This document shows, in pieces, positions 851 through 59,322 of a stretch of 64,000 nucleotides of DNA. Within the stretch, counting starts at the first letter, position 1; every line of letters starts with the position of its first letter. A model generated the notes under the pieces. That model did not search any database. It saw nothing but the letters and a program-made list of their open reading frames with translations, and was not told the origin of the DNA. This stretch comes from Aristolochia californica (taxonomy: Eukaryota > Streptophyta > Magnoliopsida > Piperales > Aristolochiaceae): contig JARWKL010000009.1 of assembly GCA_029961685.1 (NCBI GenBank), forward strand, positions 25,291,237 through 25,355,236, read 5' to 3'. A program made the position numbers and the translations under genes.

Positions 851-3800
851 CCATGCCCGCAGCATGACTGGTCATTACTATGGCGTGGCGGCCAAAGTGT
901 AAAGAAGATCACTAACTATGATCAAGGAAATTTTTAAGGATTATATATTAATTGATGCTAATTCTACAATTTGTAGATCAAAGATGGCATAACGAAAATG
1001 CCCCTGACTCTTCATTATTCTAGTTTTCATAAATATTCCTATTCTACTTTTCTTTATCTAACCCAACCGTCTAAATACCTCGACTTAACCCAAGAGACAC
1101 TATGCTTCAGACTTTCCTGCCTAGGAGACATGAGAAGGGACAACATAAGAAAGGTATGCTTCAGTCCATCTCTTCTATTAGATCAATGGTTTAGTCTCTA
1201 TTATTTTGACGATAACAAAATGGATAGCTTGAAAATGTGTAACTAATAGTGTTATCAATGTACTTAAGATATATATGTTCCAACACAATTGACAAAAACT
1301 TAAGATAAAAGAATGATCGGAAACAAGACCTGAAGTAAAAACTCATTAAAGATTGTCATTGTGAAAAAAAAAACTTATATAAAGGAGACAAACAAAGATT
1401 TGAAAACTAGTTGTGTAAGTAGATATCTAACCAAATTCCGGTTCTCACGCACATGTATGTTATGGAGCACTAGGATATACATATTTTCAAACTGTAATCA
1501 AAATCATCATATATATGTTATAGAAAGGTTTTGGAATCATAACATAGGTTTTCGCCAAATATAAACTTAATTTGAAACTCTAATAACATGTTTTTGTATT
1601 ATATCAACCTTTGAGTTTAAGAAAAAAGAATTAGGCCACAAAACGTTTTCCAATTTTTTTAATTACATATGAATATTAAGAAAACTTAAAAAACCTTAGT
1701 CTTGACTTATATCAAGATTAGAACTTATTTTTGTATATTGGCAATATGCATAATTGATCATCCAATTAGCAGAATGATCAATTATACCAAAATTTACTAG
1801 GAAGGATTTATAAATCATGATCAATCATTCATTGTAAGATGATTGCTCATTGGAGGGGCATAACCTATCATCTATCGTAGTATGATAGATCATACAAAAC
1901 ATTGTAAAACCATTTTATAAAACATAATCGATCAATTGAAGTGGGATGATCAATCAACCTATTTTTCAACAGGCTATAAAGTACTTGATTAATGCTATGA
2001 TCGATTATTGGCCAAGAGGAACTCAAAAAATATAGCCATTACAAAAGGCATGATTGATCAATGAAAAGGTGTGATCAATCATCTATTTTTTATAACCTTT
2101 TATAAATAGTAAAAAATGGATATTATGGCTAGGAAAATTATAAATAAGCTCTCAAACTCGTAGAGTACAATAAAATGAGCTTATATTGGCACACCAAACC
2201 TTTGGAAAAATATTTTGTGATTTAAATTCTGATCTTACCCTTTTGAAAAGAAAAACTCCAAAATTTTCCAATTTCTCTTCACATTCTTGGCAATCATAAT
2301 TCCATCAAGCTCCATACATTACATTCAATGAGCTTAAAGATTTGAAAGTTTAGATTTGACTAGAAGAAATGTTACTTCTCTGAAAGAAAGGTGCAAGTTT
2401 TATTTTTATCTTTTGTAGTTTTACAAAACTCTGTAAGAAGTTTTCTAGTAACTTGTAAGTTAGAAAATTTGGGTTTTTTATAATTAAAAATTTAAATGTG
2501 CACGTATTAAAGATAATGCAAGTAATTAAAAATAAACATACACCACAAATAACCTCAAATATTTTTTATTGATGTTCCCCTATTGGTATTCACTACCAAG
2601 AACACGTGCTTGGGAAATTTCACTAATCTCAGTTCTATTAGCTGAAATTTTACATACAAATTTTTTGGGCACTCTTTTAAGTCACATGTATGCTCAAATA
2701 AATGATAAAAAAATAATCTCGTTTGAGATTGGCTAGATTATCACTCCAACAAGTCTTTCTATCTTGATTCAAAAGGTTCAAGATGAAGCTATCAAGAAAT
2801 GAATAAAAATACTAAAGAATAAAAAGCTTACACCTTTTTATAAACTTGGAGAGACAACCTTCTCCCTTTATTTGTCCAACCCTTCAACTTGATGCACAAT
2901 GAAGATGATTTGGAGCTTGACTAAATGAGTGCTCATGGAAGAATTGAGAGAAATTAGAATGGTTTTGCAAAATAAGGATTTCTATCTTTAAAAAATGGAC
3001 TTAGGAAGAATTTTCAATGATAATAGCTTTTAGATGAGTAGGTATGTTAATAAATGCCCATTAACTTCTTAAGATCATGTTTAGTGGGGTATTTATAAGT
3101 TCTCCAAGACAAACTTGTCATTATTTGATTGTATGGAAAAAGTTGACGTGACATGGATCGATCAATCAATCGTGTGTAATGACTATATGTTTGTAAAAAA
3201 ATGACTTATTGATCGATGATATGACCGATCAATATATTTCTATTAGGTCAAATAAATGAAGTTGATCGATCAATATCCAAGGATTGATCGATCAATCATT
3301 TTTCATACTAGTAGTGCAGTACATGTATGATCAATCAATGACTTGTCAATGATCGACCATGGTTTATGTCCAAAGTTGGCAAACTTTTTTATGATCAATC
3401 ATTTTGAAGAGGTTGGTTGATCATTCTTCATATTTTTACATTGTGTGGATATTGTTGATCAATTAGTTCACAAAGGATAATCGATCATGCTTCATAGCAG
3501 TTTGGTTGAGTTTTGATTGACCGATTAATCACCCTAATTGATCGATCATGCTTTATATTTGTAACCTATGCACTTCTGGTTGATCGATCATTGATAGATA
3601 CTGATTGATCTATTCAATGTCAAAGCTCTAAGTTTGTTTTCAAAGCATGATTAAAATTGATCTTAAGTGATTCTAACATGTTTAAAACATATGTATGCAT
3701 CGCTAAAACATGTGGATAATGCAATTTTGACCTAAAGCTCCAAAGATTTCCATTGTACCTCAAGTTTGAAGATTTGGGGTTGCTCGATTACATAGACTGA

Positions 3801-6449: not shown

Positions 6450-6937
6450 TGTTATGGACTCTATAGCATCATGAGTTACCAATAGGCGTAGGAATTAATT
6501 AATGTGATTTTCAATTTTCATGTAATTGTCTTTGGTTTGGGTTGGTTTAGCATTTATTGGTTTGAATCATTGACCCAAGGGTAGGAATTAATTAATGTGA
6601 TTTTCAATTTTCATGTAATTGTCTTTGGTTTGGGTTGGTTTAGCATTTATTGGTTTGAACCATTGACCCAAGGGGTTTAAAGTGTTTTGGGCGTCCTCAA
6701 CCCTATTGAAGGGGACGGCTAGGGTAATGAGAAAGTAGCAATTGAGTCTACTCTAGCTTAGATTAAATTAGATAAATAGGTCACTAGCTCCTTCAAGCTC
6801 TGTCCCGTTTTTCCCCAATTCCTTTTCCGAAATTTTGTCTTCATCATTCCATCATTCTATATCAGTGTCAAGCAAGGTAATGGAAGGAAGAGAAGAGAGG
6901 AGGGTGACAAGATCCATGGCTCGTGAGGATCCTAACA
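6450..6937 (+). repeat. G1 5' LTR
   Basis: 488 bp, TGTTATGG to CCTAACA. Compared with the 395-bp 3' LTR it carries an extra ~93-bp tandem duplication (GGAATTAATTAATG unit beginning near 6490 and again near 6583), which accounts for the length difference. Core promoter candidate: the 'accctattgaagggg' block near 6702, which reads TATTTAAGGGG in the 3' LTR. Confidence 0.92.
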
Positions 6938-7850
6938 ACGTGGTATCAGATAGGTCCACCCTTGGTGATTCCTCTTCTCCAGAGGACATACGTCAAGTAC
7001 TTTTAGAACTTCAACAACGTTCCACTCTTCAAGGTGCTGAAATTTCTCACATCCATAATACATTACATATGCTGGAATCATCTCTCCAAACAGTCATCCG
7101 GAAACTTGTTGCAATTCAATCACCAACGCCACCACCAGCCACCAACTTTCAACCACAACCAGTACATCACCTACAATTCACGCCACCACCAAACTCACCA
7201 CTGCACCAACAACCTGTTCCCATGGCTACTCACGCACAAGGACCAACCACGATTCCAAGGTACTTTAAACTTAACTTTCCTACATATGATGGCTCTAAAG
7301 ATCCTTTACTTTGGTTCACGAAATGTGAACTATTTTTCTATCATCAACAAACGGTGGAAATGGACAAGGTTACATTGGCTGCCTACCACCTGCTCAATGA
7401 AGCGCTCATGTGGTTCCATCACTATTGAAATGTCCATTCCACTCAGGATTGGTTACACTTTAAACATGCTTGCCAGTTGAGGTTTGGACCTCCAGCTAGC
7501 AGCAACCCAGTGGGGGAATTGATCAACTTTAAATAGACAGGCACCTTAGAAGTGTACCAAAAAATGTTCCGAGAAAGGTTGGCCCGAGCCAGTGATTTTT
7601 TCCTCCTCACCTACATGTTCAGATTTTTAATGCTGGATTGACAGAGGCGGTTAGATTGGAAGTAGAATTACTTGGTCCGACAGATTTGGACTCAACAATG
7701 AATTATGCCAGAGCTGTGGACCACAAACAGAGAGTTCTAAAAGAATCTTTACACCGAAAACCATTTTGGAACAACAGAATATAGGGTACTGCATCTGGTC
7801 CACGTTTTGGGTCCTCTGCCCCTAACCGAGTAGATCAGTCTACCAGTGTG
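6880..7850 (+). pseudogene. gag: G1 gag (broken)
   Basis: Gag would form the particle that packages element RNA. The frame opens at ATG 6880, or at the better-context ATGGCT at 6916, both inside the 5' LTR, and runs through the LTR end and the PBS. Residues include VTRSMAR, a Pro/His-rich linker, then the retrotransposon-gag core (PRYFKLNFPTYDGS, near residue 135). The first stop is after codon 197 of the open frame (7429). Recognisable gag continues with further stops and a frameshift (GELINFK, VYQKMFRERLARASDF) to the zinc-knuckle region. It is a pseudogene. Confidence 0.85.
6941..6953 (+). promoter_or_regulatory. G1 primer-binding site (tRNA-iMet)
   Basis: TGGTATCAGATAG follows the LTR end after three bases (ACG) and matches the 3' end complement of plant initiator tRNA-Met (TGGTATCAGAGC). 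It is unusual in lying inside the open gag reading frame. Confidence 0.85.
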
Positions 7851-8465
7851 CCTCTCTACACTCTTCCACGTAAATTTTTGACTAAACAGGAAATGAAGGC
7901 TAGAAAGGCCAAGGGTCTATGTTTTAATTGTGACGAACAATTCCTTCCAGGACATACCTTTAAACGTTTATTCAGTATTGAACTTTTTGAAGAAGATTTA
8001 GAAGAACTTCCTGAAAATGAATTTGTTGAAGAGGTACAGCAAGAACCAGAGCTCTCCCTCCATGCCATGCATGGCCTGCGTAGTTCTAATACCATGCAGG
8101 TAAAGGCCAGGTTACACCACCTCATGCTACTTGCTTTAGTTGATTTGGGCAGCACACATAATTTTATCAGTGAACCAGCAACACAACAATTGGGATTAGA
8201 AATTCAATAGCAATGGGTTCTCTCGGTTTCAGTGGCCAATGGGGCTAAAATTGCAAGTGTGGGTTTATGTGCTAACACACCTTTCACCATTGAGGGACAT
8301 TCATTTCAGACGGACTTACTGGTCATTCCCTTGGCTGGATTTGATTTGGTGCTCGGGGTCAAATGGCTTCAGTTATTAGGCCCTATATTATGGGACTTTC
8401 AGGCTCGGACTATGACATTTACAGCACTACAGGGCCAGATTACATTACAAGGTATTGTGGCATAG
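7848..8465 (+). pseudogene. pol: G1 gag zinc knuckle and aspartic protease (broken)
   Basis: Two open pieces (7848-8210 and 8232-8465) separated by an in-frame stop. The first holds CFNCDEQFLPGHTFKRLF, a CCHC knuckle whose last Cys is replaced by Phe. It is followed by the protease core VDLGSTHNFIS, where the usual catalytic D-S-G reads D-L-G. The second piece carries the protease C-terminal part (GFDLVLGVKWLQ). Loss of both a zinc ligand and the active-site Ser argues for an inactive copy. Confidence 0.85.
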
Positions 8466-8599
8466 GTCCCTAATGCACTTCACACTTTACTACTTCAAAA
8501 CAATGGTGATGGTCAGTTAGCACCTTTACTTACAACATTTGCGGATTTATTTAATGACCCTACGGGTCTACCACCAGTGCGTCACTGCGATCATCACAT

Positions 8600-9365
8600 T
8601 CGTTTAAAATTGGGAACTGATCCAATAGTGGTGCGGTCTTATCGTTACCCACATATACAGAAAGATGAAATAGAACGATAGTGCATGAATATGCTCGCTC
8701 AAGGAGTGATCCAGCCCAGTCGATCTCCTTTCTCCTCACCAGTGTTACTAGTACGCAAAAAGGATAAATCATGGAGGTTTTGTGTTGACTATAGGCAACT
8801 CAACTTGCAGACAATTAACGACAAGTTCCCCATTCCAGTAGTGGATGAGTTGCTGAATGAGTTACATGGTGCTACAATTTTTACCAAGTTAGATTTGAAA
8901 TCAGGCTATCATCAAATAAGATTTCACCCGACAGATGTGGAGAAGACTGCGTTCCGCACACATCACGGTCATTTCCAGTTCCTCGTCATTCCCTTCGGTC
9001 TCTCCAACGCACTCTCCACCTTTCAGGCCCTCATGAATGAGGTATTTTCATTGCTTCTGCGCAACTATGTGTTAGTATTTTTTTATGACATTCTGGTCTA
9101 GAACAAAAATTGGGTAGAACATCTCCAACACCTCCATCAGGTATTTACCATTCTACGCTCTCATCATTTGGTTTTGAATAAATCCAAATGTTCTATGGGT
9201 ACATCTGAGGTGGCATATTTGGGCCATGTCATATCAACTGTGGGCGTGAAAGTTGACCAGAGCAAGATACAAGCAGTAACAGATTGGCCGATTCCCACCT
9301 TCATCACAGCATTAAGGGGATTTTTGGGCCTAAATTACAGAAAATTTATCCAATCTTATGGCTAG
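8600..9365 (+). pseudogene. pol: G1 reverse transcriptase (broken)
   Basis: Family blocks are in order: [59 protein letters not shown]. The catalytic box reads VFFYDIL, where chromovirus RTs have FFDDIL, so one of the two metal-binding aspartates is lost. A TAG follows directly (9099-9101). The frame resumes with the RT thumb (VAYLGHVIS, 9168-9365). The polymerase is therefore dead by both substitution and truncation. Confidence 0.88.
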
Positions 9366-10006
9366 ATAGCAGCACCACTCAACAACCTTCTCAAAAACAT
9401 GACTTCCACTGGTCTTCTTCAGCGGATCAGGCCTTTCAACTGTTTAAGGAGGCCTTAGCCTTAGCGCCAGTACTACAATTACCAGATTTTGAGGGAGACT
9501 TTGTGGTGGAATGTGATGCATCCGGGGGAGGTATAGGGGCAGTGTTACAACAATTGGGACACCCTATTGCTTATTTCAGCCATCAGTTGGGACACCACCA
9601 CCATAAGTTAACTGCATATGAGAAGGAATTGATTGGGTTAGCCAGGTTAGCCAAGACTGTCCAACATTGGCGACCTTATCTATGGGGACGACCATTTCTC
9701 ATTCGTATCGATCATTGCAGCCTCAAGTATCTTCTTGAACAACGCCTCACCACATCCCCACAACAGCATTGGTTAACTAAACTCATGGGCTTCGATTTTA
9801 CGGTTCACTATAAACCAGGTAGTTTGAATTTGTGGGTTGATGCTTTGTCACGTCAGGATATTTCAGCAACACAAGTTTATGCTATCAGTCATCCACATTC
9901 ACTTGTGCTAGATTCTATTCGTGAGGAAGTACATCAATATCCGGAACTCATGTCATTATATCAGGATATTCATCAGGGGACAGTAGCTCCTCATTGGACG
10001 ATTTAG
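9366..10006 (+). pseudogene. pol: G1 RNase H domain
   Basis: Open in a different frame from the RT, as part of a 240-codon frame from 9284. It contains FVVECDASGGGIGAVL (first catalytic Asp), AYEKELIGL (catalytic Glu), RIDHCSLKYL and the terminal WVDALSRQ with the last Asp. Compared with typical copies, the T-D-H motif reads I-D-H and one extra LAR insertion is present. The frame ends at a TAG near 10005. Confidence 0.85.
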
Positions 10007-11101
10007 GATCGTCTTATACTCTACAAAAACAAGATTTTTATGCATCATACGTCTCCACTTCTTCACACCATCTTGTCCTCAATCCATGATAGCACACATG
10101 AGGGTCGACAGAAAACATATTTCCGAATCAGTCGGGACTTTTACTGGAAGGGCATGAAGATGACAATTGCTGATTATGTAGCTGCTTGTCAGATTTGTCA
10201 ACGAAACAAGGCCGAATCTTTAAGTCCTGCCGACCTACTGCAACCTCTGCAACTACCGTCTCAAATTTTGTCCGACATTTCAATGGACTTCATTGTTGAC
10301 CTTCCCATTTCATCGGGTAAATCAATGCTATTCGTCATCGTTGATCGGTTTTCAAAATATGGTCACTTCATTGCTTTGGCGCATCCATATACTGCTGCTC
10401 AGGTCGCTCAATTATATATGGACAACATTGTCTGATTACACGGAATTCCCACATCCATTATCAGTGACAGGGATGCCATTTTTACCAGTATCTTTTGGAA
10501 GGAATTATTCAAATTACAGGGCACCCAATTGGCATTTTCATCTGCATATCATCCACAAACGGACGGACAAATAGAGCTCGTCAATCGCACGATTGAAATG
10601 TAACTTCGTTGTTTTGTGGGGGACACACCTAAATGGTGGGTGAAATGGCTTTCATGGGTAGAATTTTGCTATAACACATCTTACCACACAACACTGGGAA
10701 CTACTCCTTTCAGGGTAGTTTATGGCAGAGATCCACCTCGTCTGTTACCATATGAACCTGGGGCATCCAAAGTCGTCACTTTGGACCACGCGTTAGCTGA
10801 AAGAGATGCTATGCTCACTAAGGTACGTACTCAGCTGCAAGAGGCCCATCACTCTATGAAGCTCTATAATGATAAGAAGCACTGGGAGGTATCTTATTTC
10901 CCCGAAGACTACGTGTGGTTAAAGCTTCAGCACTACCGCCAGTTGTCCCTAACTACATCCAAGCGCCATAAGCTGTCTCAGAAATATTATGGTCCATTTC
11001 AGGCGTTGGACAAACTTGGGCCTGTGGCATACCGCTTGCAGCTACCAACGGAAGCAAAGATCCATAATGTATTTCTCGTCTCCCAATTGAAGCCATTCTA
11101 G
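10007..11101 (+). pseudogene. pol: G1 integrase (broken)
   Basis: Zinc-binding HHCC part: H of HDSTHEG, then CQICQRNKAE. Catalytic core: [27 protein letters not shown], and the 'HPQTDGQ' block before the catalytic Glu region. Stops interrupt after YMDNIV (10434) and before the RCFVGD piece. The C-terminal part ([13 protein letters not shown]...[11 protein letters not shown]...[10 protein letters not shown]) is open from 10616 to 11101. It would insert element cDNA with 5-bp TSDs. Inactive here. Confidence 0.87.
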
Positions 11102-11320
11102 GGTGACTCGCGCCTACTACACACTCCACTGCCGCCACTACATGAGGGCAGAGTCCTTTCTATTCCAGTTCAGGTTTTAAAAGCACGCCACATTCAGGGT
11201 GATTGGGAAATTTTCGTCCAGTGGTCAAATGCCGACCCCAGTGACACCACATGGGAGCCGTTATCAGCATTTCGACTCCTATATCCTTCCTTTGAGCTTG
11301 AGGACAAGCTCTTTCTCCAG
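11102..11320 (+). pseudogene. pol: G1 chromodomain and pol tail
   Basis: After a stop at 11099-11101 the frame still reads as a chromodomain: VLKARHIQGDWEIFVQWS, then TTWEPLSAFRLLYPSFELED. Chromodomains steer chromovirus integration to marked chromatin. The ending ELEDKLFLQ followed by a polypurine tract is repeated in G2 (15453-15510) and, in part, in the non-autonomous element N1 (40702-40745). Confidence 0.85.
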
Positions 11321-11322
11321 GA

Positions 11323-11346
11323 GGGGGGGGGGGGGGGGGGGGGGGG
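11323..11346 (+). repeat. G1 polypurine tract expanded to 24 G
   Basis: The sequence just before the 3' LTR is CCAGGAG followed by an uninterrupted G run, where related elements have only a short GGAGGGG-type tract. This is the primer site for plus-strand synthesis. Confidence 0.85.
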
Positions 11347-11349
11347 TGA

Positions 11350-11744
11350 TTTTATGGACTCTATAGCATCACGAGTTACCAACAGGCGTAGGAATTAATT
11401 AATGTGATTTTTAATTTTCATGTAATTGTCTTTGGTTTGGGTTGGTTTAGCATTTATTGGTTTGAACCATTGACCCAAGGGGTCTAAACTATTTTGGGCG
11501 TCCTCAACCCTATTTAAGGGGACGGTTAGGGTAATGAGAAAGTAGCAATTGAGTCTACTCTAGCTTAGATTAAATTAGATAAAGAGGTTGAGAGCTCCTT
11601 CAAGCTCTCTCCCATTTTTCCCCAATTCCTTTTCCAAAATTCTGTCTTCATCATTCCATCATTCTATATCAATGTCAAACAAGGTAATGGAAGGAAGAGA
11701 AGAGAGGAGGGTGACAAGATCCATGGCTCGTGAGGATCCTAACA
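11350..11744 (+). repeat. G1 3' LTR
   Basis: 395 bp; the start has decayed from TGTTATGG to TTTTATGG. It ends CCTAACA. The next bases ACG match the spacer between the 5' LTR and the PBS, so three bases of leader appear to follow the LTR before the TRIM begins. Confidence 0.88.
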
Positions 11745-11749
11745 ACGAC

Positions 11750-12072
11750 TGTTAGGGTCCTGGGTTAAGTACCTATGCCTTCTGCTCCTAACAGGCCGGT
11801 GTTTTGGGTAGTATTGGCTAGGTGCTTAACATTTGGTATCAGAGCTAGCGCTGCACCCTGACTTCGAATCCTGGCGCCCCCAAAACGGATGCGGGTGGTC
11901 ACGCGCCTGGACTGACCCGGGTTCGACCCAGCTCCGGTTCCTCTGTTGTGGTAGCCTCCGCGGTCGTCGGCTCGGGGAAGGGCAGGGTACTGTTACGGTC
12001 CTGGGTTAAGTACCTATGCCTTCCGCTCCTAATAGGCCGGTCTTTTAGGTAGTATTGGCTAGGTGCTTAACA
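11750..12072 (+). mobile_element. TRIM element T1 (323 bp)
   Basis: Two 82-bp direct repeats (11750-11831 and 11991-12072), each starting TGTTA-GGTCCTGGG and ending GGTGCTTAACA, flank a 159-bp interior. TGGTATCAGAGCT (11834-11846) is a good tRNA-iMet primer site. GGGGAAGGGCAGGG (from 11974) is the polypurine tract. There is no coding capacity. This is a terminal-repeat retrotransposon in miniature, copied by proteins of other elements. No TSD is seen around it (ACGAC vs AAAAG). Confidence 0.92.
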
Positions 12073-37598: not shown

Positions 37599-38030
37599 TG
37601 TTGGAAGATAAGCTCAAGCCCACATGACCAAGGAAGGCCCACATATCTAAGATTATTATAATATGGGCCACACGACCAAGGAAGGCCCACAAGATGGGCC
37701 CAAACCCATAAGAAGTAGGACCCACAATGATTACTATGAGCTGGCATCCTTATCACATCAGTTGGAAGATCAAGAAGGACTCACAAAAGTATCTTATCTT
37801 ATGGTAAAGTCAAAGAAGAGTTTAAGTTTTAGTTATGTTTGTCTTTTATCTATATTGAGTTATTTAATTATGTTGGGACTTATCTTTAAGTGTTAGAGTT
37901 TGGGTGTAATTGGGACAATGGTAGTTTTATTATAATTAGACTCTACTACCTTCCTCTATTATAAATAGAGGCTCATGTACTCTGATCACAACAAGTCAAT
38001 GAAGTATTTATCTTTTACATAAATTCAACA
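37599..38030 (+). repeat. N0 5' LTR
   Basis: 432 bp, TGTTGGAAGATAAGCTC to ACATAAATTCAACA. It is nearly the same as the 3' copy beginning at 40011 (first base pair changed: TATTGG). Related LTRs lie at 57517-57856, 58061-58490 and 58874-59322. TATAAATAGAGGCTC near 37959 is the promoter candidate. Confidence 0.9.
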
Positions 38031-40010: not shown

Positions 40011-40392
40011 TATTGGAAGATAAGCTCAAGCCCACACGACCTAGGAAGGCCCACATATCTAAGATTATTATAAGATGGGCCACACGACCAAGGAAGACCC
40101 ACAAGATGGGCCCAAGCCCATAAGAAGTAGGACCCACAATTATTACCATGAGCTTGCATCCTTATCACATCAGTTGGAAGATCAAGAAGGACTCGCAAAA
40201 GTATTTTATCTCATGGTCATGTCAAAGAAGAGTTTTAGTTTGAGTTATGTTTGTCTTTTATCTATATTGAGTTATTTAATTATTTTAGGACTTATCTTTA
40301 AGTGTTAGAGTTTGAGTGTAATTGGAACAAGGGTAGTTTTATTGTAATTGGACTCTACTACCTTCCTCTATTATAAATAGAGGGTCATGTAC
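40011..40392 (+). repeat. N0 3' LTR, left part
   Basis: Follows the tract AGCTTGAGGGGGAG (39998-40010). It is interrupted by N1 after TCATGTAC and completed at 44039-44093. Confidence 0.9.
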
Positions 40393-40701
40393 TGTTACGC
40401 CCCAGATCTAACACACGATGAAGACGATGAATAGGGAGGATTGTTCTGATGTTTTGAGCCTTCGAAGGGAGCTCAACCCTGGACCTCAAAGGGAGAATCC
40501 GACCTAGACCTCAGAGGGGAGAATCTGACCTGATTACAACTAATTAATTCAATGCTTACCTTCTCATTCATCTTACGCCCTTATATAGGGAATTAGGGAA
40601 AACATGCCAAAGGCCATAAGTTCTACAAATTACAAATAAACCCCTAATAATTACAAATAAACCCCAATCTATCCTCTCTAGATGTTATGGAGTCCATAAC
40701 A
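40393..40701 (-). repeat. N1 3' LTR
   Basis: 309 bp. In element sense it starts with the 19-bp near-perfect palindrome TGTTATGGACTCCATAACA and ends GGGGCGTAACA. A CTATATAAGGG promoter box (minus strand, near 40590) is present. Confidence 0.93.
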
Positions 40702-40750
40702 TCACTCCCCTCCTAGAGAACGAGCTTGTCCTCAAGCTCGAATGTAGGTC
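40702..40750 (-). other. N1 polypurine tract and pol-tail remnant
   Basis: Minus strand reads TTCGAGCTTGAGGACAAGCT then CGTTCTCTAGGAGGGGAGTGA, then the LTR. The first part encodes FELEDKLVL and a stop, the tail that ends pol in G1 (FELEDKLFLQ) and G2 (FEDKLFLQ). The second part is the plus-strand primer. Confidence 0.82.
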
Positions 40751-40864
40751 TACTTGCCCGTGCCGATGTCTAGATCCCTGCATGCCCAGTGTCAACCGCG
40801 AGATTGGAGGCAATCCTCTGGACTACAAAACTAGAGCATCAAACCAGAGGAGCAAAAATTCACT

Positions 40865-43135
40865 CTAGAAAATGAACTCTGAACTGCATAAACGGTCAAG
40901 CTTGTCAGGGGGCAAATTGATCTTTGATTTTCTGAGGACGTGGTGAACGCCCTCAACACTAATGAAACCTCCTTCACCACTTTGATCTTGTGCATCAAAC
41001 GCCCTCCAGAGTAGAGATTCCCGCTGCTCCAATTCATTTTCATCGTGCACGGAGAGATGCAGGGCCAACAACACCGTATAGTGGGATTCACGGCCAACAA
41101 CCCAGAGGTGCCACCTGGGGCATTTCAGGAGCTGCCCAACCTTGCAGAATTTCAGAGAGTCCAACAGACTAAGGAATCCAACCTCCATACTTGTTGGTAT
41201 TCCATTCAGAGACATGCCAACTCCTAGATCCATACGGCTATCAAACACATTTGGAACACCTCGACCACAGAGCAGTAGGTTCACAATTTCCTGGGAAGCA
41301 GATAGAAGAAACAGCAGTGCCCCCCAAACGACTTTGGAAATGAGAAGCACAGATTTAAGGGGATGAAATGTCTCTATTCTCAGAGTGACAACATTCACTA
41401 GTAACACTTTCTGTAAGTATGAAGCTGAGTCAATTTGAAAACCGGCCAAGTTTGTAACCTGTGTCTCAAGTGCTGCCTCTCCTGCCCTGTTAATCTTTGT
41501 TGCAGGTAGTGCAGGATAAAATTTTATGGGAGTTGCAGCAACATGTGCAAAAGAACCTATCCGACCTTTCTTCTTCCTTGCCTGTGCAGGAATGCTTCCA
41601 AGCTCACTTGCTGCACAATGGCTATAACCAGCCACCTTGAACTGTACTCCTTCGAGCCACTTGCAAACTGGTAAAGATGCGTCCCCCAAATGTTCAACAT
41701 ATTGAGTCTGCCGGATCCATGTTGGCTTTAGAATCATGCAAACCTTTTCAAGAACCAGGATGACAGTTTTAGCATCATCTGCATGCATCCACAGGAAGAA
41801 AAGTGGCATTATGTCCACTCCCAATAGAAACTCACAACGGATGTTTTCCGCCAACCCACCTTCTGGACAGCTATACAATGTGTCGGATAATTCTCGGAAG
41901 GCCCTTGCTGAAGACGCCAGTCTAGCACAACAAAGGCAGAAGTCCCTTATTTCACTGTGGAGCAAGCTGTCAATGTTTTCAGCAATCAATGAGGAGTCTT
42001 GCTGGGGGAAGAGAGATTCTAGCACTGATTGACGTGGAAAATTTGGACTTTCTGGCACATTGATACTGGTCTTTGAAAGGGATTTTGTTACTAGATCATC
42101 TAGAGAGAAATTGAAAACCTCATTTCGCCAGTGGTGCATCTCATCACGGGTCAAGATCGCATGAACCTTAGTGCGATAGCCACCTATGTCAGGTCCAAAC
42201 ATAAGGCTGTATGGAGGCTCTCCACCAAAGTTCTTTTGATCCACATCCCTGCTTAACAACTGCCGGTAGGCAGCACAATCCAGCTGCTGCTCGTGGTTGA
42301 CAAAAATTTGAACATCACCACTGCTGTTCCCATAAAGAAAATGTTTTGGAACATGTGATTGAACACACTGCCCTGCTTGAGTGGCTTGCAAAACACACGT
42401 CAACAACTGATCTCTGGGTAGTCGCACATGATCAACCCTCAGGATACCATTATCCATGGTATTGTAAGCTTCATTTCCAAATTGTCTCCTCTTATCACCA
42501 ATTGTACTACCTGGAAGAGGGGATTGAATTTCCAAACTTTGTAGTTGCACAAGAAAACCATTCACTCCATGCTCTTGTCCATCGCCGAGTAGCTGAGCAT
42601 AGAGAATAGCTTGTGTGGAAACTTTACCCAAGCCACTGTGCTCATCAACAAAGAAATAGACCCTTCCCCAAAAAAACTTGAGCATCACAAAAAGCACAAA
42701 TAAATACAGGACAAGCACACTGGTCTCAGCAGTTGAAAAAATACAGAGCTTCACATTCTCACGTGGACAACGAATAGACGCACTGGTGGTGTGCGCAGCA
42801 GCAGAACAACCAAGCCACCAAAAATATTTCAGAGGTCCCCAAAAAAGAAATTTAATGGAGCCCGACATCCTCCCAAAAATTTGATCTCGACTTGCATAGA
42901 CCCAAGCCGAAATTCCTGCATTTGGGCATTGGTTCGTGGCTTCCAGAAACAGAGAGCATTCGTTCCCGATTTCCGAGCAGCGTTGCTGCTGCCCAGCACC
43001 CTGGAGGCACTTCAACCGCATGGAACCACAGATTTGAACTAAAAATAGATGGCGTTTCAAACTCTTACCCAAAAATTCATTGGATATGGTTCCCCGTTGG
43101 GTTTCTGAGGGCAAGATCGAGGCTGAGAATGACAT
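40865..43135 (-). CDS. chimeric ORF of captured host-gene fragments in N1 (756 codons)
   Basis: One uninterrupted minus-strand frame from ATG 43135 (a TTG at 43147 would extend it by four codons; an in-frame TAG lies upstream). Counting from the TTG: residues ~170-275 are peroxisomal acyl-CoA oxidase (GLGKVSTQAILYAQLL, HGVNGFLVQLQSLE, YNTMDNGILRVDHVRLPRDQ). Residues ~277-346 are calreticulin (HEQQLDCAAYRQLLS, DVDQKNFGGEPPYSLMFGPD). Residues ~620-760 look like a plant MINDY-type deubiquitinase with an EF-hand-like stretch (ESHYTVLLALHLSVHDENEL, AFDAQDQSGEGGFISVEG). Residues 1-169 (including a hydrophobic run at ~132-165) and 347-619 are unassigned. The pieces carry no visible introns, suggesting capture from spliced RNA. 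The MINDY reading continues past the final TAG. No single enzyme could be complete; the product, if any, is unknown. Confidence 0.8.
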   Translation of the reverse strand: MSFSASILPSETQRGTISNEFLGKSLKRHLFLVQICGSMRLKCLQGAGQQQRCSEIGNECSLFLEATNQCPNAGISAWVYASRDQIFGRMSGSIKFLFWGPLKYFWWLGCSAAAHTTSASIRCPRENVKLCIFSTAETSVLVLYLFVLFVMLKFFWGRVYFFVDEHSGLGKVSTQAILYAQLLGDGQEHGVNGFLVQLQSLEIQSPLPGSTIGDKRRQFGNEAYNTMDNGILRVDHVRLPRDQLLTCVLQATQAGQCVQSHVPKHFLYGNSSGDVQIFVNHEQQLDCAAYRQLLSRDVDQKNFGGEPPYSLMFGPDIGGYRTKVHAILTRDEMHHWRNEVFNFSLDDLVTKSLSKTSINVPESPNFPRQSVLESLFPQQDSSLIAENIDSLLHSEIRDFCLCCARLASSARAFRELSDTLYSCPEGGLAENIRCEFLLGVDIMPLFFLWMHADDAKTVILVLEKVCMILKPTWIRQTQYVEHLGDASLPVCKWLEGVQFKVAGYSHCAASELGSIPAQARKKKGRIGSFAHVAATPIKFYPALPATKINRAGEAALETQVTNLAGFQIDSASYLQKVLLVNVVTLRIETFHPLKSVLLISKVVWGALLFLLSASQEIVNLLLCGRGVPNVFDSRMDLGVGMSLNGIPTSMEVGFLSLLDSLKFCKVGQLLKCPRWHLWVVGRESHYTVLLALHLSVHDENELEQRESLLWRAFDAQDQSGEGGFISVEGVHHVLRKSKINLPPDKLDRLCSSEFIF

Positions 43136-43145
43136 TCCGGAAGCC

Positions 43146-43728
43146 AAATACTACCCAAAAGACCGGCCTGTTAGGAGCGGAAGATATAGGTACTCAACCC
43201 AGGACCATAACTGCCTAGCCCATACTAGGGTCGTGTTATGGGCCAGCCCATACCAATCCATAACACCACACCCCCCATCGCGAGCCAACGACCACGGCGG
43301 CACACCGACACTGACCCGACCCAAGGATTACACGAGGACCTATCAGTATTCACGCCTTTGTGCGCTTAATCCAGCCTATGCGCCCACCGAGATTTGAACT
43401 CGCGACCGAGCACTAGCTCTGATACCAAATGTTAAGCACCTAGCCAATACTACCCAAAAGACCGGCCTGTTAGGAGCGGAAGATATAGGTACTCAACCCA
43501 GGACCATAACTGCCTAGCCCATACTAGGGTCGTGTTATGGGCCAGCCCATACCAATCCATAACACCACACCCCCCATCGCGAGCCAACGACCACGGCGGC
43601 ACACCGACACTGACCCGACCCAAGGATTACACGAGGACCTATCAGTATTCACGCCTTTGTGCGCTTAATCCAGCCTATGCGCCCACCGAGATTTGAACTC
43701 GCGACCGAGCACTAGCTCTGATACCAAG
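43146..43728 (-). repeat. two identical 299-bp tandem TRIM-like units in N1
   Basis: The interval from about 43146 repeats at an offset of exactly 299 bp with no difference that I can find. In element sense each unit has a primer site TTGGTATCAGAGCTAG, a T-arm-like hairpin (CGAG-TTCAAAT-CTCG), a G-rich tract ATGGGGGGTGTGG, and a short LTR (the complete one is 43430-43564, 135 bp, TGTTATGG ... CTTAACA). The LTR's inner part matches the 82-bp LTR of TRIM T1 (11750-12072). The first unit lies directly against the N1 5' LTR, so N1 uses the TRIM's primer site. Confidence 0.9.
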
Positions 43729-43729
43729 A

Positions 43730-44038
43730 TGTTACGCCCCAGATCTAACACACGATGAAGACGATGAATAGGGAGGATTGTTCTGATGTTTTGAGCCTTC
43801 GAAGGGAGCTCAACCCTGGACCTCAAAGGGAGAATCCGACCTAGACCTCAGAGGGGAGAATCTGACCTGATTACAACTAATTAATTCAATGCTTACCTTC
43901 TCATTCATCTTACGCCCTTATATAGGGAATTAGGGAAAACATGCCAAAGGCCATAAGTTCTACAAATTACAAATAAACCCCTAATAATTACAAATAAACC
44001 CCAATCTATCCTCTCTAGATGTTATGGAGTCCATAACA
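43730..44038 (-). repeat. N1 5' LTR
   Basis: 309 bp, identical by eye to the left copy. On the minus strand its end CGTAACA is followed by TC and then TTGGTATCAGAGC, the initiator-Met primer site (minus strand, about 43715-43727). Confidence 0.93.
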
Positions 44039-44093
44039 TGTACACTGATTACAACAAGTCAATGAATTATTTATCTTTTCCATAAATTCAACA
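44039..44093 (+). repeat. N0 3' LTR, right part
   Basis: Begins with the second TGTAC copy and ends CATAAATTCAACA, followed by the second GTGCT of N0. Confidence 0.9.
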
Positions 44094-58060: not shown

Positions 58061-58490
58061 TGTTGAATTTATGGAAAAGAGAAATACTTCATTGACTTAT
58101 TATAATCAGAGTACATGCACCTCTATTTATAATAGAGGAAAGTTGTAGAGTCCAATTACAATTAAACTACCTTTGTCCCAATTACACCCAAACTCTATCA
58201 TTTAAAGATAAGTCCTAGCATAATTAAATAGCTCAATATAAATAGAAGACTAACATGACTAAAACACCTTTAAACTAAAACTCTTCGACGAGACCTACTT
58301 CCATAATAATTTTGGTTTTGTAAGACTTCTTATTGTGTAAGACTTCTCATGCTACCTCATGTGATCATGGTGGGTCCCACCAGCTCGTGATCATGGTGGG
58401 TCCATATCTTATGGGTTTGGGCCCATCTTCTAACACAATTGGATTTGTAAGTCTTCCTTGGTCATGTGGGCTTGGGCCCATCTTCCAACA
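58061..58490 (-). repeat. N0-type LTR, left arm
   Basis: On the plus strand TGTTGAATTTATGGAAAAGAG ... GGGCCCATCTTCCAACA, then the polypurine complement TTCCCCTTCAAGCTGGGGGG. Confidence 0.9.
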
Positions 58491-58873: not shown

Positions 58874-59322
58874 TGTTGGAAGATGGGGCCAAACCCACAC
58901 GACCAAGGAAAACCCACATATCCAACTGTGTTGGAAGATGGGCCCAAGCTCATAAGATATGGACCCACCATGATCACATGAGTTGGTGGGACCCACCATG
59001 ATCACGTGAGGTGGCATTATGAGTCTTGCACAATAAGAAGTTATACACAAGAAGAAATCTTACAGTGCCACAATTATTATGGAAGGATGTCTCATAGAAG
59101 AGTTTCAATTTAAAGGTGTTTTAGTCATGTTAGTCATCTATTTATATTAGGTTATTTAATTATGTTAGGACTTATCTTTAAGTGTTAGAGTTTGGTTGTA
59201 ATTGGGACAAAGGTAGTTTGATTTTAATTAGACTCTACTACCTTCCTCATTTATAAATAGAGGTTCATGTACTCTGATTACAATAAGTCAATAAAGTATT
59301 TTTCTTTTCCATAAATTCAATA
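58874..59322 (+). repeat. N0-type LTR, right arm
   Basis: TGTTGGAAGATGGGGCC ... CCATAAATTCAATA, preceded by AGCTTGAGGGGGAA. TATAAATAGAGG near 59251 is the promoter candidate. Confidence 0.9.

Follow-up and report, generated by a model that had tools for sequence, protein, structure and literature searches.

We analysed a 64,000-nucleotide stretch of the Aristolochia californica genome (contig JARWKL010000009.1, positions 25,291,237 to 25,355,236; hereafter the window). It holds N1, a long terminal repeat (LTR) element on the minus strand at 40393–44038, with its 5′ end at 44038 and its 3′ end at 40393. N1 is very probably a copy of a non-autonomous, Ty3-related, Bs1-like LTR family that shuffles pieces of host genes and is moved in trans. 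Judged from protein similarity, pieces of at least four donors are joined in one of its reading frames: an acyl-CoA oxidase (ACX), calreticulin, an At2g39910-type gene and the MINDY-3 deubiquitinase. The features that define the element are the following:

40388–40392 (no strand): left copy of the target site duplication (TSD) TGTAC, a single copy of which is present at unfilled paralogous sites
40393–40701, minus strand: 3′ LTR (element sense), 309 bp, identical to 43730–44038
40705–40716, minus strand: polypurine tract (PPT) CTAGGAGGGGAG, in a stretch matching Ty3-type elements at the 3′ end of their internal region
43715–43727, minus strand: primer binding site (PBS) TTGGTATCAGAGC
43730–44038, minus strand: 5′ LTR (element sense), 309 bp, with TATATA at element position 115
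44039–44043 (no strand): right copy of the TSD TGTAC

The original prediction, made from the letters of this DNA, had named two identical 309-bp LTRs, the TSD, a PBS and a polypurine tract, and each is present at the positions given above. On alignment the LTRs agree at 309 of 309 bases, so no substantial difference separates them, and TGTAC flanks both sides. The PBS TTGGTATCAGAGC we take to be of the initiator-Met type. N1 lies in a copia-like repeat, and three paralogous copies of that repeat within the window carry the TGTAC target once and free of insert (37976–37980, 58111–58115 and 59268–59272). Paired LTRs, TSD, PBS and PPT thus identify N1 as an LTR retrotransposon. No gag-pol was detected in it, a Pfam search of its 756-codon frame returning MINDY and calreticulin only. 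Helitrons insert without a TSD, and Pack-MULEs have long terminal inverted repeats and a 9-bp TSD; both identities were ruled out for N1 by the LTR pair and the 5-bp TSD, the inverted repeats being just 14–25 nt long.

As predicted, a frame of 756 codons opens with an ATG between the LTRs (761 codons from stop to stop), but in sibling copies the frame runs to 945 codons, and that of N1 is a shortened version. The N1 frame is built as follows:

40865–43135, minus strand: mosaic frame of 756 codons followed by its stop
42686–43135, minus strand: N-terminal stretch, residues 1–150, the first part of which is family backbone (82–84% to copies of the AIG1-phosphofructokinase (PFK)-enolase type)
42323–42637, minus strand: acyl-CoA oxidase 1, residues 167–271 (E 2e-35 to tomato ACX1A)
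42122–42316, minus strand: calreticulin, residues 274–338 (Pfam E 1.7e-6; also matched in PDB)
41687–42103, minus strand: At2g39910-type gene, residues 345–483 (protein matches including P0121)
41471–41686, minus strand: segment 5, residues 484–555, the first part of which is common to P0001
40871–41470, minus strand: MINDY-3/4 deubiquitinase, residues 556–755 (Pfam E 3.3e-21)

Segment-wise protein searches upheld the ACX, calreticulin and MINDY pieces that had been proposed as coming from at least three host genes, extended the MINDY similarity from 41290 to 41470, and added the At2g39910-type donor, which had been missed. The multi-gene capture claimed for this element thus holds, and the donors that share the frame number at least four. 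All four lie in sense orientation and in a common reading frame, and no captured piece covers its whole donor; that of MINDY, for instance, spans profile positions 190–291 of 344. The At2g39910-type segment is itself two joined pieces (residues 345–444 and 442–483), with ~187 donor residues skipped between them. Stops number 3–15 per segment in the remaining two sense frames, with the exception of segment 5, which has 2 and 3. For residues 1–150 and for segment 5, donor searches found no donor, and Pfam returned nothing meaningful for segment 5 or for the N-terminal stretch read in all three sense frames. A single-gene origin of the frame was rejected: the segments match four different donors, and no gene spanning the whole frame was found.

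The protein closest to the MINDY segment is P0002 (P0002, P0003 and P0121 are A. californica proteins, P0004 is from A. fimbriata). The segment is without 28 residues that are present in P0002 and still encoded by old copies of the family. Exon skipping was considered as the source of this gap and discarded: P0009 and P0111 are without another stretch, and two old copies (L049 and L050) retain the 84 nt in question.

Genome searches, which covered 659.6 Mb in 521 contigs, returned further copies of N1. The LTR query gave at least 44 matches (40 of 1957 candidates scored) and the MINDY-segment query at least 42 (40 of 64 candidates scored), with 18 further places beyond the copies examined. We examined 22 N1-type copies, the window copy included; L041–L046, L049 and L050 were seen in part. 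They group into subfamilies:

Subfamily A: the window copy and L009–L018 (11 copies)
Subfamily B: L022, L023, L025, L041 and L042
Subfamily C: L043–L046
Subfamily E: L049 and L050

Subfamily A LTRs are 98–100% identical to those of N1, except for the truncated LTR of L010 (95%). An exact 5-bp TSD flanks 9 of the 11 copies; in L013 it matches at 4 of 5 bases and in L010 it is unreadable. The 756-codon frame is open in 6 of the 22 N1-type copies, all of them young (the window copy, L009, L010, L011, L012 and L014). The remaining 16 have stops or frameshifts within the part seen, and L013, L016, L017 and L018 have a one-base insertion at codon 599 in common. A strongly shortened derivative lies at L024:397–1163, where only ~200 bp, including a piece of the 3′ end, separate two family LTRs.

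When was the mosaic formed? A very recent origin had been suggested, and on this point the cargo speaks differently. Between the MINDY piece of N1 and P0002, 43 of 200 residues differ, compared with 14 of 200 between P0002 and P0003 and 19 of 200 between P0002 and P0004 of the other species. Scaled as neutral, the replacements amount to ~0.107 changes per site. They bear little relation to donor conservation: the area under the curve (AUC) is 0.54, against 0.76–0.89 in 5 real protein pairs, and 0.565 (permutation p 0.105) when limited to sites invariant across three Aristolochia proteins; 18 of 95 near-invariant sites are altered. The ACX piece gives an AUC of 0.52 between N1 and P0001, with 0.86–0.93 in 3 real pairs. 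Over 98 columns, N1 and P0001 have in common 23 ACX residues that deviate from the consensus, 13 of which are never seen in 82 ACX proteins (a set without Aristolochia ACX). By these measures, drift in the captured protein sequence has been mostly unchecked by donor constraint.

The same mosaic is present in L049 and L050, old copies that are ~10% diverged. They also keep stretches that are gone from N1, namely 84 nt of MINDY in both and, in L049, 57 nt of the At2g39910-type piece and a further 3 nt; the 84-nt and 57-nt blocks translate to donor residues. Together, the MINDY and ACX replacements and these diverged copies point to a young insertion of an old mosaic, with ~0.1 changes per site in the cargo against 0 of 309 between the LTRs.

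The family carries more than one cargo. Between related 5′ and 3′ ends, L019, L020, L021 and L026 carry an AIG1-PFK-enolase cargo (Pfam was run on L019 and L021 only). The 5′ backbone is common to both cargo types (L022 and L021 are 90.6% identical over 1436 columns), and the 3′ ends are related as well (82% over 467 columns). The annotated protein P0001 joins both cargoes: its residues 1–242 resemble N1-type copies and residues 243–583 resemble L021 (82%), with no counterpart of N1 residues 295–419. The end of its enolase part (residues 528–583) presumably resembles enolase read in another frame. A third cargo arrangement occurs in a nested element at L018:4052–7630, which has 435-bp LTRs unlike those of N1, the TSD GATTG, and PPR repeats together with pieces of enolase and MINDY. 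Over the elements seen, the identified donors number eight (ACX, calreticulin, the At2g39910 type, MINDY-3, AIG1, PFK, enolase and PPR).

Could a chimeric host gene have been fused first and then taken up by the element once? Such a gene would fit the oldest copy, L049, which already has the same order of pieces (L050 spans just the 3′ part), and it would fit the annotation of P0001 as a protein. However, two cargoes between related ends, a protein joining both and the nested mosaic in L018 require exchanges among elements. Moreover, no further protein with this fusion was found among the matches listed (the best 120 of 461, 2 of 2 and 84 of 84). We therefore consider uptake of one ready-made gene very unlikely.

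The latest such exchange can be followed in the leader of N1, which corresponds to a terminal-repeat retrotransposon in miniature (TRIM):

43147–43727, minus strand: tandem TRIM leader, two 282-bp units with a 299-bp period, PBS present twice
43430–43564, minus strand: TRIM LTR, ~135 bp
43137–43153, minus strand: joint between the TRIM leader and the family backbone; the TRIM and L014 have TGGCT in common at the switch point, and N1 has one extra T

N1 equals its sibling L014 over element positions 1–324 and 893–3646 with one mismatch, and the leader between them is the sole difference. In L009, L010, L011, L012 and L014 the frame begins farther upstream and is 945 codons long, counted from its first ATG. 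The N1 leader has the very short LTRs and the own PBS of a TRIM, and copies of it occur separately and in tandem elsewhere. Its unit gave at least 80 genome matches, the window's own included (40 of 502 candidates scored), which display an LTR-internal-LTR pattern and a tandem arrangement as judged by match positions alone. At G000:C111:10262293–10263614 the match positions indicate four or more units of this TRIM in tandem. Within the window, a TRIM-like element with ~82-bp terminal repeats (94% alike) occupies 11748–12072, directly after a Ty3-type element, and is related to the TRIM of the N1 leader.

By these comparisons the window copy is a fresh recombinant, in which replacement of the leader by a tandem TRIM shortened the 945-codon frame to 756 codons. 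A template jump to TRIM RNA would be the simplest reading of the leader: a single minus-strand jump followed by ordinary PBS transfer would yield exactly the structure in the window, and the switch points lie at the common PBS on one side and at the common TGGCT on the other. Alternatively, without any template switching, an N1 copy may have received a TRIM insertion that was later reshaped by deletion or gene conversion. TRIM units that stand alone and in tandem elsewhere, by match positions, would provide the source. Yet the switch falls precisely at the common PBS and TGGCT, neither the LTRs nor the TSD are damaged, and elsewhere the element is L014 bar one base, which makes insertion and repair an improbable route.

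Which element might supply the proteins for this movement? The 3′ internal end of N1 matches a Ty3-type element of the window (6450–11747) at 37 of 42 bases, at 11285–11326. In that element the gag frame seems to start inside the LTR and a run of 24 G stands at the PPT. A second Ty3-type element is nested at L023:3178–8290, with 375-bp LTRs (one mismatch), the TSD GAATG and an open frame of 1453 codons that contains gag, protease, reverse transcriptase, RNase H and integrase. N1 is 86% identical to it over 79 nt, which comprise the last 47 internal nucleotides and the first 32 of the LTR. This nested element is a plausible helper of N1.

Is the mosaic frame kept open by selection? The element was originally picked for its long frame, an ascertainment that bears on any answer, and the frame-keeping check between N1 copies gave a divided result: an excess of synonymous changes in subfamily A on one side and neutral deep branches on the other. 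Changes private to single subfamily A copies are synonymous in 31 of 61 cases, compared with ~27% expected (p 6e-5; the count omits 5 changes near gaps), and the excess stands with methylation context (z 3.9). Methylation-driven mutation was rejected as its cause, the context-aware expectation being 17.5 against the 31 seen. In subfamily B, 40 of 163 private changes are synonymous, which differs from A (Fisher p 3e-4), and the changes common to part of B stand at 14:11 nonsynonymous plus stop to synonymous (p 0.04). Deeper in the family the same ratio is near the neutral expectation, both for the fixed A/B changes (83:33) and for the branches to A (24:8), AB/C (18:3) and ABC/E (14:5); it is 79:29, again near neutral, in the AIG1-type copies. 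Pooled internal changes without the B class give 97:41 (p 0.16).

Insertions and deletions (indels) are similarly mixed. Within the family frames, 10 of 14 indels of at least 20 nt are multiples of three (330, 93, 81, 297, 105, 141, 189, 84, 57 and 159 nt, the others being 122, 115, 29 and 20 nt; p 0.004), and small indels of 1, 2, 7 and 10 nt are present across both cargo types. Spliced-out introns do not account for the in-frame deletions: neither GT-AG nor GC-AG borders were found at the deletions of at least 20 nt that were checked. In a simple simulation, the chance that MINDY and ACX together stay free of stops is 0.02–0.03. A filter for long frames by RNA surveillance was also considered and found no direct support.

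Broken frames offer a separate line of evidence. Stop codons are shared at 243 (L045 and L046), 337 (L044 and L045) and 476 (L022 and L042), and we rejected such stops as proof that broken frames spread: codon 181 is hit in L015 and in L044, members of separate subfamilies, which shows that a site can acquire a stop twice. We relied instead on the frameshift at codon 599. Because four copies share it and yet have spread, the whole frame is not required for movement.

As argued for maize Bs1, the mosaic frame might encode a protein under selection. The frame open in six young copies, the synonymous bias in subfamily A and in part of B, the losses of 84, 57 and 3 nt between old copies and N1, and the multiples of three among larger indels would all suit such a protein. 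Against it, the deep branches and the AIG1-type copies are neutral, the shared frameshift did not stop the spread, and the same synonymous bias is seen downstream of it (6 of 9). Indels of 1, 2, 7 and 10 nt occur, and ten ATGs precede the frame between the LTR and its start in the window copy. We regard selection on the protein as unlikely; constraint is unproven, and hints of frame keeping remain.

What is the mechanism by which the family builds its mosaics? Host coding pieces were joined in sense before the oldest copies seen were inserted. Family RNA would be packaged and copied by the proteins of an autonomous element, probably of Ty3 type, whose reverse transcriptase would jump between co-packaged RNAs, host mRNAs first; we infer that capture and joining took place in this step. 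Later jumps would have occurred among family members, a route suggested by the cargo differences and the joint protein seen. For the latest jump, to the tandem TRIM, the product, its near-identical sibling and the TRIM elsewhere are all seen: minus-strand synthesis would have left the mosaic RNA at TGGCT for TRIM RNA, and normal PBS-mediated strand transfer would have followed. The youngest lineage still has the frame open, and its full length is not required for transposition. A bolder proposal is a working exon-shuffling system, in which a Ty3-type reverse transcriptase recombines co-packaged host, TRIM and family RNAs, swaps multi-gene cassettes between related ends and tends to keep a single frame through them, with the subfamily A protein under selection; we hold this to be rather doubtful.

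Several points weigh against a non-autonomous, Ty3-related family that gathers host mRNAs. The donors were compared as proteins, and P0001 was compared as an annotated gene model. Inside the LTR, N1 and the nested element of L023 are weakly alike (69% over 157 columns), and no autonomous element sharing the whole N1 LTR was seen. Compared with the family consensus, the ACX piece of N1 gives an AUC of 0.63, between random and real pairs. The synonymous biases in subfamily A and in part of B are left unexplained by plain neutrality.

How does the N1 family compare with known systems? LARD-type (large retrotransposon derivative) and other non-autonomous LTR elements have LTRs, a PBS and a PPT, are without gag-pol and are presumed to move in trans. 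N1 is unlike the LARD type in that host coding sequence makes up much of its internal region. Movement of non-autonomous LTR elements is described in Arabidopsis (PMC8704663). No published description of the N1 family was found in the literature searched.

Few examples are known of LTR elements taking up and fusing host mRNAs, Bs1 foremost among them. Here, the product of a very recent switch is present in one genome together with its sibling and its TRIM counterpart. The same genome contains old copies in which donor stretches that were later lost in frame are still encoded, a second cargo flanked by related ends, and a protein that combines the two cargoes. The template-switch model, the sequence of captures and the question of whether the frame is kept thus become testable largely from sequence, and the N1 family illustrates how elements of this kind can assemble mosaic genes.

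Gene-capturing LTR elements are documented in several grasses. The maize survey counts 425 elements and no fewer than 189 captures; under its own conditions, none of the elements held pieces of more than one gene (PMC2774510). LTR elements with captured host gene fragments are also reported in the survey of rice and sorghum (PMC3726574). N1 resembles these elements in its host gene fragments and differs from those of the maize survey in combining multiple genes. Among TRIMs, soybean GmaRetroS15 is described with gene fragments, exons from more than two genes are reported in two TRIMs, and tandemly arrayed TRIMs are known (PMC4717578). N1 is like the GmaRetroS15 kind in its pieces of several genes, and its leader is like the tandem TRIM structure; unlike TRIMs, it is a 3.6-kb element with a TRIM as leader only and a long mosaic frame. 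In the published account, Bs1 has a hybrid frame and segments from three host genes, the capture is termed transduction, and template switching is also described for the elements Veju and BARE (PMC13317346). Like Bs1, N1 is an LTR element with pieces of several host genes between its LTRs and a hybrid frame. Unlike Bs1, the N1 family has a cargo with at least four donors and a total of eight donors across the elements seen, differing cargo between related ends and a leader replaced by a TRIM, and its deep branches lend no support to selection on the protein.

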